Assembly: GCF_001590835.1 (NCBI RefSeq)
Contig: NZ_LTAQ01000012.1
Span: forward strand, 153,168-217,167
Length of the DNA: 64,000 nucleotides
Direction of reading: 5' to 3'
Source of the DNA: Bacillus gaemokensis
GTDB taxonomy: Bacteria; Bacillota; Bacilli; Bacillales; Bacillaceae_G
How positions within the stretch are numbered: position 1 is the stretch's first letter; every line of letters starts with the position of its first letter. Positions 59,015-64,000 of this stretch are shown here, one piece after another. Below the pieces are notes generated by a model. It ran no database searches. It worked only from the letters and a program-made list of their open reading frames with translations, and was not told the origin of the DNA. A program made the position numbers and the translations under genes.

Positions 59015-60028
59015 ATGAAAATTTCAAAGCCACTGTTCATTACAATGGCGCTCTTAATAGCGCTTGTCATTATTATACCGGCCGTACTTGTTGTTCCGTT
59101 TACGAAAGCGAAGGAAGAGCGACCAAAAGCGAATCCTCCAGCCGTGCAAGCACTGCCAGTTCCTGCAAAGACTAAAATGGACCTAAAGGTTGCTGTGTAT
59201 CGCAGCGCACAAAAGAAGGTAGAAACAGTGCCGATGGAAGAGTATGTTGCAGGTGTAGTCGCTTCTGAGATGAATGCCAGCTTCGAAGTGGAGGCGTTAA
59301 AGGCGCAAGCATTAGCAGCGAGAACATTTGTCACGCAGCGCATGTTAAGCGGAAACAAGAAAAACAATGCGGATGTAACAGATACGGTCAGTGATCAAGT
59401 GTACAAAAGTAAAGAAGAGTTACAGAAGACATGGGGAAAAGAGTATGAGAAAAACTTGAAAAAGATTGAAGAGGCTGTGTCTAAAACAGCCGGACAAGTT
59501 TTAACGTATGATGGCAATCCGATTACCGCATCCTTCTTCTCAACGAGTAACGGTTATACAGAGAATGCGGCTGATTACTGGGGGAGTGATTACCCGTATT
59601 TAAAAAGCGTCAATAGTCCTTGGGATCAAGCTTCTCCGAAATTTGCGAGTGAGCAAACTTTCCGTGTCGATGATTTTCAAAAACGTCTCGGCGTAAAAGT
59701 TCTTGCGAACGGAAAGGTCGGTAACATTAAAGAGCGTACGGAAGGGAAACGAGTGAAGGATGTAGAGTTTCAAGGGAAAACATTATCAGGAAGAGACGTT
59801 CGAGATAAGCTGGAATTACGTTCCTCTGATTTCACGTGGAAACAACAAGGAGAGAGCATTATCGTCACAACGAAAGGTTTCGGCCATGGGGTTGGTATGA
59901 GTCAATATGGTGCGAATGGAATGGCGAAAGAGGGGAAAGGATACACAGACATTGTTGCTCATTACTATAAAGGAATTGAGATTAAAACGTTAAATGATTA
60001 TGAAGGAAAATTAATGGCGAAGAACTAG
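59015..60028 (+). CDS. spoIID: Stage II sporulation protein D
   Basis: 337 residues with GCGGGGGA before ATG. N-terminal membrane anchor (residues about 7-29). The SpoIID/LytB lytic transglycosylase domain has its catalytic glutamate in [20 protein letters not shown] (E89 region) and the C-terminal [17 protein letters not shown] block. It digests denuded septal glycan during engulfment with SpoIIM and SpoIIP. A weak SigE-like GTATATG-14-CATGTTCC pair lies upstream, but the match is too poor to annotate. Confidence 0.94.
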
Positions 60029-60058
60029 GTTTCAGGGGATCCTGATACCTAGTTCTTT
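60021..60058 (+). terminator. spoIID terminator
   Basis: AGAACTAGGT pairs with ACCTAGTTCT, with an inner CAGG/CCTG stem, then TTTG. The stop codon lies in the left arm. Confidence 0.85.
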
Positions 60059-60068
60059 GTGTGGAAAT

Positions 60069-60139
60069 ATATCGGCGCTTTTTCAAATATATCGACCGTT
60101 CTGGGCAAAATATCGGTGTTTCGACACAATATATCGACC
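60069..60139 (+). repeat. Four 9-bp iterons at 20-21 bp spacing
   Basis: ATATCGGCG (60069), ATATCGACC (60089), ATATCGGTG (60110) and ATATCGACC (60131) have start-to-start distances of 20, 21 and 21 bp, so all lie on one face of the helix. They sit between the spoIID terminator and a second terminator ahead of the LytTR fusion gene. Two 9-bp direct repeats about 21 bp apart is the known geometry of LytTR binding sites, though the sequence differs from the usual consensus. Confidence 0.7.
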
Positions 60140-60147
60140 ATGCGACA

Positions 60148-60179
60148 AAAAAGGAGCTAATCTGAATTAGCTCCTTTTT
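60148..60179 (+). terminator. Terminator upstream of the LytTR fusion gene
   Basis: AAAAAGGAGCTAAT pairs perfectly (14 bp) with ATTAGCTCCTTTTT around CTGA. Being 77 nt before the next start and after the iterons, it could act as an attenuator or insulate in both directions. An extended -10, TGGTATAAT, follows at about 60219-60227. Confidence 0.85.
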
Positions 60180-60255
60180 AATTCCGGAATAAATATCATA
60201 ATTTTCCATTAATTGTTTGGTATAATAAGATAAAAACTCATCTGGAGGAAAAAAC

Positions 60256-61263
60256 ATGGCGTTACTGGAGTTAAAACAATTGGGGAAGACGAATCAGTTG
60301 CCAGTGATTCAACTGGAAATTGAAAAGGGACAATGTGTTGTGTTGCAATGTAATAATCATACGGCAAAAGTTTTGCACCGCATTATAATTGGTGAAGAAG
60401 AGGCTTCTTCGGGAAGTATCTTGTTTGACGGGGAACCAATTGGGAAGAGAGTATATCCGTGTATTGGTTTTTGTTTTTTAAAAGATGAAGCATACAATCG
60501 TTTGAAAGTGAAGGAATATCTTTCTTTTGTAGCTGGATTGTATAAATCGAATATTAGCATAGAAGAAGTTGTTCAGTCGGTTGGTTTACTCGATAAATTG
60601 AACATCAAAATAGAAAAATTGTCATTCTCTGAAAAACGTCGTCTTCATATTGGCCGGGTTATGATTCATAATCCAGATTTAATCATTTTGGAAGAGCCAG
60701 AACAAAATGTAGATATAGAAAGCACGATTATTATTCGAAAAGCAATTATGAAAATGAAAGAACAAGGAAAGGCAATCTTTATTACATCATCCTTTTTATC
60801 GGACGCACTCTCTTTAACGGAAGATGTGTATATATTGAATCAAGATGGCGTGAAAAAGGTGGAAATTGAGCAGGAAGAAAGTGAAGAGATAGATACAGAG
60901 AAAGTTGTTCAAATGATTCCGCAAATGAAGCTTGAAAGAATTCCAGCAAAGGTGAACGATAAAATTATTTTGCTTGATCCGATGGAGATTCACTTTATCG
61001 AAACACAGAATGGAACGACGTATATTCATGTTCGTGAGGGAGATTTTGTTTGTGCATTAACGTTAAGTGAATTAGAAGAGAGATTAAAAGGATTTGGATT
61101 CTTTAGATGTCATCGTTCTTACCTTGTGAATTTACAGCGCGTACGAGAAGTAATTACTTGGACACGTAATAGCTTTAGCTTAATTTTGGATGATGAACGA
61201 AAAAGCTCCATTCCACTTTCTAAAGGAAGAATGGATGAATTAAAGGGTGTTATTGGACTGTAA
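60256..61263 (+). CDS. Degenerate ABC-ATPase domain fused to LytTR DNA-binding domain
   Basis: 335 residues, CTGGAGG before ATG. Residues about 1-205 follow the ABC ATPase plan, but Walker A is lost (VVLQCNNHTAKVLH in place of GxxGxGKT) and the signature reads LSFSEKRRLHIGR. Walker B is visible as DLIILEEPE. Residues about 228-335 are a LytTR domain (IHFIETQNGTTYIHV, FFRCHRSYLVNL, IPLSKGRMDELK). It is therefore probably a non-hydrolysing ABC-like sensor that controls transcription. It stands just ahead of an intact ABC ATPase/permease pair, the likely target. Confidence 0.88.
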   Translation: MALLELKQLGKTNQLPVIQLEIEKGQCVVLQCNNHTAKVLHRIIIGEEEASSGSILFDGEPIGKRVYPCIGFCFLKDEAYNRLKVKEYLSFVAGLYKSNISIEEVVQSVGLLDKLNIKIEKLSFSEKRRLHIGRVMIHNPDLIILEEPEQNVDIESTIIIRKAIMKMKEQGKAIFITSSFLSDALSLTEDVYILNQDGVKKVEIEQEESEEIDTEKVVQMIPQMKLERIPAKVNDKIILLDPMEIHFIETQNGTTYIHVREGDFVCALTLSELEERLKGFGFFRCHRSYLVNLQRVREVITWTRNSFSLILDDERKSSIPLSKGRMDELKGVIGL

Positions 61264-61299
61264 ATCTGCTCCAATAGGACAGAAATAGGATTCATTCAC

Positions 61300-61333
61300 C
61301 AGTAAAAATACTCCTTTTACCGGTATTTTACTG
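61300..61333. promoter_or_regulatory. Inverted repeat ahead of ABC transporter genes
   Basis: CAGTAAAAATAC pairs with GTATTTTACTG (one extra A in the left arm) across 11 nt, with CCGGTA at the centre right. It lies 37 nt after the regulator stop and 120 nt before the ABC ATPase start: an operator or weak terminator. No convincing -35/-10 pair was found by eye in 61334-61452. Confidence 0.5.
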
Positions 61334-61452
61334 CGTAACCCCTTTGTTTTTCATATGATTGAGTCAAGAACAGCGCAACCAAAAAGCAGAGGCGGCAAAA
61401 CAGTCGCTAAAGCAAACTTCAATTATAAAAGAAAAACAAAGGGGATGACGAC

Positions 61453-62295
61453 GTGGCACTAGCAATTGAAATGAAGGATGTAATGAAAACCTTTAATGAA
61501 AAAACGGCACTTCAAAATGTAAATATTGAAGTAAAACAAGGAGAAATCTTTGGGTTCCTTGGACCAAGTGGATCAGGGAAAACAACAACAGTGAAAATCT
61601 TAACTTCTCAGTTGCTTCATAGCGTTGGAACAGTGAGAGTACTAGGTAAGGATATTACAGGACCAAACAGCATGGATTATAAACAAATTGGTATTTTAAC
61701 AGATAACAGTGGTTTATATGAAAGACTTAGCATTTATGATAACTTACTATTATTTTGCGACTTATACGACTGTAAAAAAGAACGAATTGATGAAGTGTTA
61801 GCGCAAGTGAACTTATTAGAAGATAAAACAACACCAGTGAAAAAATTATCAAAAGGGATGAAGCAACGCGTTACATTAGCGCGTGCAATTCTGCATAAAC
61901 CGGATATGCTTTTCTTAGATGAACCAACGTCTGCACTGGATCCAGTGAACGTCCAAAACATTCATAGTATCTTAAGAGATTTAAATAAAGAAGGAACAAC
62001 AATCTTCTTAACAACGCACAATATGGATGAAGCAGAAACGCTTTGTGACCGCATTGCCTTCTTATGCGGCGGTGAAATTGTGGCGCTTGATACACCAGAA
62101 AACTTAAGGCTTAAATATGCGAAAGATAAAATCGAAGTAGTGTTAAAGGATAAGAAAAAAGAAACAGTACAAAAAGATGAATTAGGGGCAAAACGTATTT
62201 CAGAATGGATGAAGAAAGGTGAATTACTATCGATCCATTCTTATGAGCCAACACTTGGGGATATCTTTATTGAAGTAACAGGGAGGGGATTATGA
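61453..62295 (+). CDS. ABC transporter ATP-binding protein
   Basis: 280 residues from GTG behind AAAGGGGATG. Complete ATPase: Walker A GPSGSGKTTT (residues about 37-46), Q-loop, signature LSKGMKQRVTLARA (about 133-146), Walker B MLFLDEPTSALD and switch histidine in TTHNMDEAE. Together with the permease it resembles drug- or peptide-type ABC-2 exporters of the CcmA class. The substrate is unknown. Overlaps the permease by 4 nt. Confidence 0.93.
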   Translation: MALAIEMKDVMKTFNEKTALQNVNIEVKQGEIFGFLGPSGSGKTTTVKILTSQLLHSVGTVRVLGKDITGPNSMDYKQIGILTDNSGLYERLSIYDNLLLFCDLYDCKKERIDEVLAQVNLLEDKTTPVKKLSKGMKQRVTLARAILHKPDMLFLDEPTSALDPVNVQNIHSILRDLNKEGTTIFLTTHNMDEAETLCDRIAFLCGGEIVALDTPENLRLKYAKDKIEVVLKDKKKETVQKDELGAKRISEWMKKGELLSIHSYEPTLGDIFIEVTGRGL

Positions 62296-63002
62296 TGACA
62301 TTTTCTATGAGAAGATTTTCAGCTATTTTTCGGAAAGAGATGCGGGACTTTAAATCTAATTCACAAGTTTTAATGATGATTGGAGTCCCAGTACTTTTCG
62401 CTATTATATATGGTCAGGCAGAGCAATTTAGAGGAGTAGCGGCTAATTTAACTGTTATTATGGCTCTTGTTTTTATCGGCGGATTTGTGCAAGCGATGAT
62501 GATTGCTGAAGAAAAGGAAAAACATACGCTTCGTGTTCTTATGTTGTCACCGGCGTCTTCAGCTGAAGTGTTGATTGGGAAAAGTTTTTTAACAGGAATC
62601 ACGACCATAGTGGTATGCTTTACTAATTTACTTATTTTAGACAAATTAGAAGGTAATATTGTACTTTTATTCTTCATCTTTTTGCTTGGAACTATTTTAT
62701 TCAATCTGATCGGAACATGTATAGGATTGCTTGCTCAAAACGTACCACAAACATCTCTTATCGGAATGCCAATTCTATTCATATTTCTTCTTTCAGATCT
62801 ATTAGAGATGTTTGTGAAAAATGAAAGTTTGAAGAAAGTATTTCAATATTTACCAACTAAAAGCATTGGGGAAGCGATGAATAGTGTGATACAAGGGAAA
62901 GGCTTTAGTGTAATTTCAGGAAACGTATTGAATATATCCATTTGGTTAGTTGCAGCGCTTGTTATTTGTCTCTTCCTCTACAAAAAGAAACAACTAGACT
63001 AA
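62292..63002 (+). CDS. ABC-2 type transporter permease
   Basis: 236 residues, six membrane helices (the first about residues 27-47), with the ABC-2 coupling-helix region FRKEMRDFKSNSQVLMM and EEKEKHTLRVLMLSPASSAEVLIGK (quoted in part: EKHTLRVLMLSPAS). Start ATGATG overlaps the ATPase stop. With one ATPase and one half-size permease, the pair should form a 2+2 exporter. A strong terminator starts at its stop. Confidence 0.92.
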   Translation: MMTFSMRRFSAIFRKEMRDFKSNSQVLMMIGVPVLFAIIYGQAEQFRGVAANLTVIMALVFIGGFVQAMMIAEEKEKHTLRVLMLSPASSAEVLIGKSFLTGITTIVVCFTNLLILDKLEGNIVLLFFIFLLGTILFNLIGTCIGLLAQNVPQTSLIGMPILFIFLLSDLLEMFVKNESLKKVFQYLPTKSIGEAMNSVIQGKGFSVISGNVLNISIWLVAALVICLFLYKKKQLD

Positions 63003-63164: not shown

Positions 63165-64000
63165 ATGCGAGGAAGGAATAATAAAAAGTCGCGAAAAGTA
63201 GTTCATTTGTTTCAAAAAAGATGGGTATTTCCGGCACTCTATATTGCGTGTGCAGCAGTAATCTTGTCGGTTGCTCTATGGTTCCAGGCAGCTAATCCAA
63301 AGAAAACGCCGAATCAGGACGGGGCAGCGCCGTATAGTCAAACGGAAGATCCAGGGATTCCAGTAACAAAATCTTCAGAAGTTGTGAAAATGCCAGCTGC
63401 AGCGAATGCAGAAGTTGTTGTACAGAAGAAGTTTTACGAGGATGGAGCACCGGAGAAAGAGCAAGAACAAGCACTTGTCTTTTATAACAACACATATTCT
63501 CCGAATAAAGGAATCGATATTGCTGCGAAAAGTGGCAAAGAGTTCGATGTTACAGCTGCTTTAAGCGGTACAGTAACAAAAGCGGAAAAAGATTCACTAC
63601 TTGGTTATGTTATTACAGTTGATAGTGGTAATGGTCTTGCAACATCTTATCAAAGCTTAGGTAGTGTAAAAGTAGAAAAAGGTGCAAAGGTTGCACAAGG
63701 TGAAGTATTAGGAAAATCCGGTCTAAGTGCAATGAATAAGGATGCAGGTTCTCATGTCCACTTTGAAGTACGTAAAGATAACGTAGCTGTAAATCCAGAG
63801 CGTTACCTGAATAAATCTGTAACAGAAATTAAAGCGGACGCAGGTGCAACAAAAGCAGCGAATGGTTCTGCTAGCAAAACGGAAGAAAAGCAGAAAAAAG
63901 AAGAAAAATCAACGAACGGTTCTACTGAGGAAAAAGCAACAAACAGTAAAACTGATGACAAAGGTCAAAAAGAAGAGAAATCAACGAACGGTTCTACTGA
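63165..64000 (+). CDS. spoIIQ: Stage II sporulation protein Q (3' end outside window)
   Basis: ATG 63165 behind GAGGTGATGA opens a frame of 278 codons that runs off the right edge. One membrane anchor (residues about 22-42) is followed by a LytM/M23 domain (about residues 115-225). The first zinc histidine is replaced (NKGIDIA instead of HxGxD) while SHVHFEV keeps the HxH pair, so it is a degenerate, probably non-enzymatic LytM, as in B. subtilis SpoIIQ. The C-terminal tail is Lys/Glu/Ser/Thr-rich with KEEKSTNGSTE occurring twice before the edge. It binds SpoIIIAH to build the forespore channel. Confidence 0.93.
   Translation, partial: MRGRNNKKSRKVVHLFQKRWVFPALYIACAAVILSVALWFQAANPKKTPNQDGAAPYSQTEDPGIPVTKSSEVVKMPAAANAEVVVQKKFYEDGAPEKEQEQALVFYNNTYSPNKGIDIAAKSGKEFDVTAALSGTVTKAEKDSLLGYVITVDSGNGLATSYQSLGSVKVEKGAKVAQGEVLGKSGLSAMNKDAGSHVHFEVRKDNVAVNPERYLNKSVTEIKADAGATKAANGSASKTEEKQKKEEKSTNGSTEEKATNSKTDDKGQKEEKSTNGST

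Follow-up and report, generated by a model that had tools for sequence, protein, structure and literature searches.

What controls an exporter operon lodged between two sporulation genes, and why does the regulator encoded in front of it carry half of an ABC ATPase? These questions are raised by a locus of Bacillus gaemokensis, studied here in a window of 64,000 nucleotides (contig NZ_LTAQ01000012.1, positions 153,168 to 217,167 of the forward strand). The regulator gene (60256..61263, plus strand) encodes a protein of 335 amino acids and is followed by genes for an ABC ATPase and an ABC-2 permease. Bacterial exporters are often adjusted to demand through a transporter that signals to a separate kinase or regulator. 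Here the evidence leans towards a joint reading in which the LytTR DNA-binding domain of the regulator would activate the exporter operon from an array of phased repeats, while its ABC-like half would contact the exporter. Neither LytTR regulators nor ABC exporters nor phased repeats are new in themselves; the variant is a dead ABC domain, shared by the whole family, that would serve as the input half and comes with a conserved candidate operator of its own. A literature search by titles and abstract openings, covering few subscription papers, returned no description of an ABC-LytTR fusion; one may exist in print.

The regulator has lost the ATP site of its ABC half

Profile searches recognised the N-terminal half of the regulator as an ABC ATPase fold (Pfam ABC_tran, residues 18-148, 45 bits) and residues 235-332 as LytTR (PF04397), with 95.1 bits against a gathering cut-off of 22.6. 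The pseudo-ABC half spans residues 1 to about 205 and is separated from the LytTR domain by a low-confidence linker (206-233). Against the PDB, the LytTR domain matched 3d6w at E 3.8e-8, and ComE and AgrA merely at E 0.2-0.3. When the regulator was aligned with the adjacent ATPase, its Walker A region read LQCNNHTA-KVLH where the ATPase has FLGPSGSGKTTTV.

Relatives of the regulator (E <= 1e-40) were found in 80 of 397 sampled Bacillales genomes, about a fifth; the genomes were drawn from a larger group and five candidates were scored per genome, so that 80 may be an underestimate. In a named collection 18 loci were detected, among them Bacillus sp. REN10 (59% identity), Paenibacillus, Cohnella, Terribacillus, Priestia and a Clostridia metagenome-assembled genome; no Bacillus cereus-group chromosome was named among these 18, although the window itself probably belongs to that group, to judge by its spoIIQ model (NF053738) and its overall gene content. 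Priestia plasmids also bear relatives. The first alignment held 47 distinct proteins including that of the window, after four repeat loci had been skipped and two duplicates dropped. It was extended by 18 more distant proteins from 20 fetched stretches, two of which (L218 and L219) belonged to the closer family and were dropped, giving a total of 65. The regulator with a pseudo-ABC half is a family, not an isolated oddity.

Throughout this family the nucleotide site is degenerate. A strict Walker A pattern was present within the first 120 residues of none of the 65 distinct members, and the single match to a relaxed pattern (L002) lies off the P-loop position. The neighbouring ATPases have an intact Walker A in 61 of 61 cases, and in a joint alignment the column of their Walker A lysine is a gap in all 65 regulators. 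The glycine of the ABC signature, invariant in the 61 ATPases, is serine in 61 of 65 regulators (Ser125 in the window). The position of the Walker B aspartate holds glutamate in 56 of 65 members, and the H-loop histidine, found in 98% of the ATPases, is serine in the window regulator and in 53% of the members. The regulator is a LytTR protein with a degenerate ABC-ATPase-like N-terminal half whose ATP site was lost across the whole family, as the earlier note on this DNA had read it for the single protein. Because Walker A is lost in 65 of 65 members, nucleotide sensing through the usual ABC site is unlikely.

Other features were kept. A GLYERL-type segment after the old Q-loop is retained, with Tyr80 in 61 and Arg82 in 58 of the 65 regulators; the same positions of the ATPases are Tyr in 61 of 61 and Arg in 60 of 61. 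In solved ABC transporters, the region of this segment faces the membrane domain. Residues E146, E147, P148, Q150, N151, D153 and E155, which make up the old Walker B/D-loop block, are nearly invariant in alignments of 32 and of 30 sequences; the position of this block is that of the dimer face of ABC domains.

The ATPase gene (61453..62295, plus strand) encodes a DrrA-like protein with intact Walker A, as judged by profile searches and alignment, and the ABC-2 permease gene (62292..63002, plus strand; profile search) overlaps it by four bases. The complete exporter announced by the earlier note is thus in place downstream. The pair shares its layout, an ATPase followed by a small permease, with DrrA and lantibiotic-protection ABC-2 exporters (TIGR01188 and TIGR03740). 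It differs from these in that the ATPase falls below the curated cut-offs (243.7 versus 312.45 for TIGR01188 and 177.1 versus 309.75 for TIGR03740) and is preceded by a dedicated pseudo-ABC/LytTR regulator. A same-strand ATPase gene and then a permease gene lie downstream of the regulator in 61 of 65 loci. A permease-like frame was seen in all 65 when the listings were read, mostly with the ATPase gene between regulator and permease; at L004 the order is regulator, permease, ATPase, permease. At the four remaining loci a permease but no ATPase gene was found in the fetched stretch: in L211-L213 the permease gene follows the regulator directly, and in L018 another frame lies between.

A phased array in front of the exporter operon

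Between the regulator and ATPase genes of most relatives, units of the form GCTCC(A/T)TTCA are found. In the window the candidate LytTR operator is a CTCC(A/T)TTCA array with a period of 21 bp (61266..61339, plus strand), with units at 61266, 61287 and 61308; a fourth, degenerate block at 61329 (TACTGCG) occupies the -35 position. The earlier note had expected a LytTR-type array with a spacing of about two helical turns. This part stood, and such an array lies in 61264-61452, one of the regions it had listed for a binding test; the ATATCG array which it took to be the target did not (see below).

In the 46 regulator-ATPase regions (45 relatives and the window) 88 sites with at most two mismatches were counted, against a mean of 4.7 and a maximum of 11 in shuffled sequences. 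Pairs of units at 20-22 bp were present in 24 of the 46 regions (shuffle mean 0.005). Upstream of the regulator gene, the 46 close-family regions contained nine unit sites and no pair at 20-22 bp. A matrix trained without the window placed the best triple of the entire 64 kb at 61266, with a score of 24.5 versus 5.1 for the next one outside the array on either strand, and the best pair at 61287 (25.4 versus 13.1); its seed, GCTCCATTCA, was picked by eye with all regions in view, including that of the window, which was excluded from the training itself. Further support is provided by a motif-free test, in which regions with a 7-of-9 match were counted at each lag. The counts peaked at 21 bp, with 35 of the 46 close regulator-ATPase regions (shuffle mean 5.7, maximum 13) and 13 of the 15 distant ones (shuffle mean 1.5, maximum 6). 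No such peak was seen upstream of the regulator gene in close relatives, where lag 21 reached 16 of 46 regions and other lags up to 23. A strict two-unit pattern occurred at eight places in 40 genomes with the regulator, seven of them abutting the regulator gene, and at two places in 40 genomes without it; this pattern is specific but insensitive.

Whether the units extend into the end of the regulator gene was also considered. A unit match lies within the coding region in five of 46 loci (61203-61223 in the window, and in L005, L006, L007 and L010), but it probably reflects conserved KSSIPLSK codons, and an extension of the operator was rejected.

Downstream of the array, TATGAT (61354..61359, plus strand) is a candidate -10 box of the exporter operon, with no consensus -35. 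When the regions were anchored on their last unit, two modest signals appeared: TAATGCG over positions +21 to +27 and, at the offset of this box, TAnnnT over +46 to +51. Of up to 46 regions, 28 had the first T of the latter, 29 the A and 34 the final T. This layout resembles that of the LytTR Regulatory Systems (LRS, HdrRM/BrsRM type), for which PMC6193735 describes a LytTR regulator that lacks a receiver domain, an adjacent gene for a membrane protein, and 9-bp direct repeats, mostly with 12-bp spacers (a 21-bp period), 4-11 bp upstream of -35. The adjacent membrane protein has its counterpart here in the permease-like frame of all 65 loci. The present system differs in its pseudo-ABC domain on the regulator and in having an ABC-2 permease as the membrane protein, and the LRS hallmark of autoregulation was not seen, there being no array pair upstream of the regulator gene in close relatives.

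A proposed coupling of the regulator to the exporter

We infer that the regulator acts as a one-component system. Its LytTR domain would bind the 21-bp-phased array at 61266-61339 and activate the weak promoter at 61354, from which the ATPase-permease operon would be transcribed. The N-terminal half would most likely serve as a decoy motor subunit and contact the exporter at the coupling helix of the permease, at the active ATPase, or both, and access of LytTR to the DNA would then depend on the state of the exporter. The two parts of this proposal differ in strength. Activation of the exporter operon through the array is likely, given the conservation and the place of the repeats. That the pseudo-ABC domain couples regulation to the exporter by physical contact is possible, a suggestion drawn from the gene order, from the features lost as against those kept, and from the loci without an ATPase. 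Its most explicit form is put forward tentatively: an ABC motor domain without ATP binding, but with its transporter-facing segment retained, would dock on the permease or pair with the ATPase and hold LytTR off the DNA until the exporter is engaged, and a single protein would thereby convey transport demand to a phased operator. The permease-only loci would then represent a reduced version, with the permease serving purely as a receptor. In MalK-MalT and Bce-type systems the transporter reports its state to a regulator that is a protein of its own; in the present case the DNA-binding domain itself carries the fused, inactive motor-like domain. If true, a dead motor joined to a DNA-binding domain would make a very short exporter circuit, present in 80 of 397 sampled Bacillales genomes, and its sequence-defined operator makes the idea directly testable.

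The main rival keeps control of the exporter operon by LytTR through the CTCC(A/T)TTCA array, and draws on the same array evidence, but regards the dead ABC domain as a relic for dimerisation or scaffolding, or as a direct binder of a small ligand, with no transporter contact. It owes its rank to the old Walker B/D-loop block, which is also nearly invariant and lies at the dimer face. The constant presence of a permease alongside the regulator, in 65 of 65 loci and including the four without a detected ATPase, argues against it. Of the 65 members 48 have Q150, and L211-L213 and L018 all lack it, a pattern that is confounded by kinship; this loss in ATPase-less loci is suggestive and would fit a contact with the ATPase. 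All in all, we consider an ABC half without transporter contact rather unlikely. Repression of the exporter operon in place of activation is improbable. The fourth block of the array covers the -35 position, where a bound protein could block polymerase, but a promoter that lacks a consensus -35 and has phased repeats directly in front of it is what PMC6193735 reports for LytTR activators.

Several observations weigh against activation from the array and contact with the exporter. The units of the window differ from the family consensus at two to three of ten positions, a moderate match, and the strict two-unit pattern was missing at this place in 33 of the 40 regulator genomes. The signals at the -10 and -35 positions are modest, about 0.3-0.9 bits per column. 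A pair test with the general LytTR-site consensus gave a weak result: pairs were present in 6 of 46 close regions, where shuffles gave 1.5 on average and at most 6, and in 4 of 15 distant ones, where shuffles gave 0.45 on average and at most 3. Upstream of the genes of the 18 distant members, lags 20 and 21 were slightly the highest (9 and 8, with other lags at most 7 and shuffles at most 10), which leaves a little room for a possible autoregulation in these members. Many relatives are close kin and some are near copies, and the counts overstate their independence. Concerning the ABC half, dimerisation could equally explain why the Walker B/D-loop block is nearly invariant, and the orientation of the GLYERL segment towards the permease is taken from solved transporters rather than computed for this protein.

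The upstream ATATCG repeat and the flanking genes

The earlier note had taken a second array, upstream of the regulator gene, as the LytTR target. This array (60069..60139, plus strand) has four ATATCG units with starts at 60069, 60089, 60110 and 60131, at the spacing of 20, 21 and 21 bp that the note had given. Its phasing is real: triples of phased ATATCG gave two overlapping matches in the window and none in 100 dinucleotide shuffles, whereas the number of ATATCGRC units is unremarkable (five in the window; shuffle mean 2.83, with five reached in 13 of 100 shuffles). About 116 bp separate the array from the regulator gene downstream of it, as would suit a LytTR protein that controls its own gene from there. 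However, a genome search found it to be a dispersed repeat, far from LytTR genes, an outcome that the earlier note had itself named as a refutation. The strict three-unit pattern was present in 30 of 397 Bacillales genomes, with at most 20 matches per genome, and a backwards-pattern control gave 0 in every row. The regulator occurs in 6 of the 30 genomes with the array and in 74 of the 367 without (Fisher p = 1.0), and an ATATCGR pair was found in just one of 68 fetched regulator loci, where it lies within the regulator coding region. In addition, a hairpin with A and T runs separates the array from the gene. A role as operator of the regulator was rejected on the dispersal and the missing association, autoregulation from this array is highly improbable, and the array is probably not part of the regulator system.

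The hairpin in question (60148..60179, no strand assigned; -17.4 kcal/mol, z -4.4) resembles a bidirectional terminator and may act as one. With a terminator-like hairpin at the spoIID end (60017..60060, plus strand; -29.3 kcal/mol, z -7.0), presumably the spoIID terminator, it brackets the array, which itself showed no RNA structure in folding (z +1.4). A possible extended -10 box of the regulator gene, TGGTATAAT (60221..60226, plus strand), was picked by eye. A promoter/terminator scan of the window listed neither the candidate promoters nor the two hairpins.

Across genomes the ATATCG(A/G)C arrays keep a period of 20-21 bp in a house style for each genome; the five arrays of genome G154, for instance, all have five units with gaps of 21, 21, 21 and 20 bp. 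Of 29 arrays examined (28 fetched stretches, L194-L201 and L222-L241, and one plasmid record), 20 overlap no frame of at least 100 residues. Among the 24 with frames on both sides, 11 lie between convergent and 3 between divergent frames, as judged by eye from crude frame calls and with no background rate. The TAACTGA heptamer repeats of Beggiatoaceae (PMC4679880) are similar in being short direct repeats set in many intergenic regions with unproven function; most of those sets lie just upstream of start codons, while the ATATCG arrays have a 20-21 bp period, occur in either orientation and lie between convergent frames in 11 of 24 cases. An origin as plasmid or phage sequence was considered and rejected: five plasmid records and one phage record match, and one alone covers most of the query. 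That plasmid record (NZ_CP100662.1, L175) is labelled Pseudomonas fluorescens pZL222, but genes of Bacillus type, namely men genes and one of the yteA sporulation family, are present on it, with a five-unit array beside menC; it looks mislabelled or like a contaminant. In viral contigs the two-unit pattern was found in at least 120 stretches and the three-unit pattern in 19.

The module is flanked by spoIID on the left (59015..60028, plus strand; TIGR02870, 417 bits) and spoIIQ on the right (63165..63998, plus strand; NF053738, 292.9 bits), the latter cut by the window end. Both genes were found in 19 of 20 relatives' genomes tested. They are 79-699 bp apart in all 19, compared to 3136 bp in the window, and the regulator is encoded on a different contig in six of these genomes and 57 kb or more away in the other 13. 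Since spoIID and spoIIQ are neighbours there and the regulator is elsewhere, the arrangement in the window looks like an insertion; the earlier proposal that the module was inserted between the two genes is supported for this lineage. On the Priestia megaterium plasmid pBMV_2 (L024), a single case, a site-2 protease gene immediately precedes the module, and a lantibiotic cluster of the mersacidin family is located nearby.
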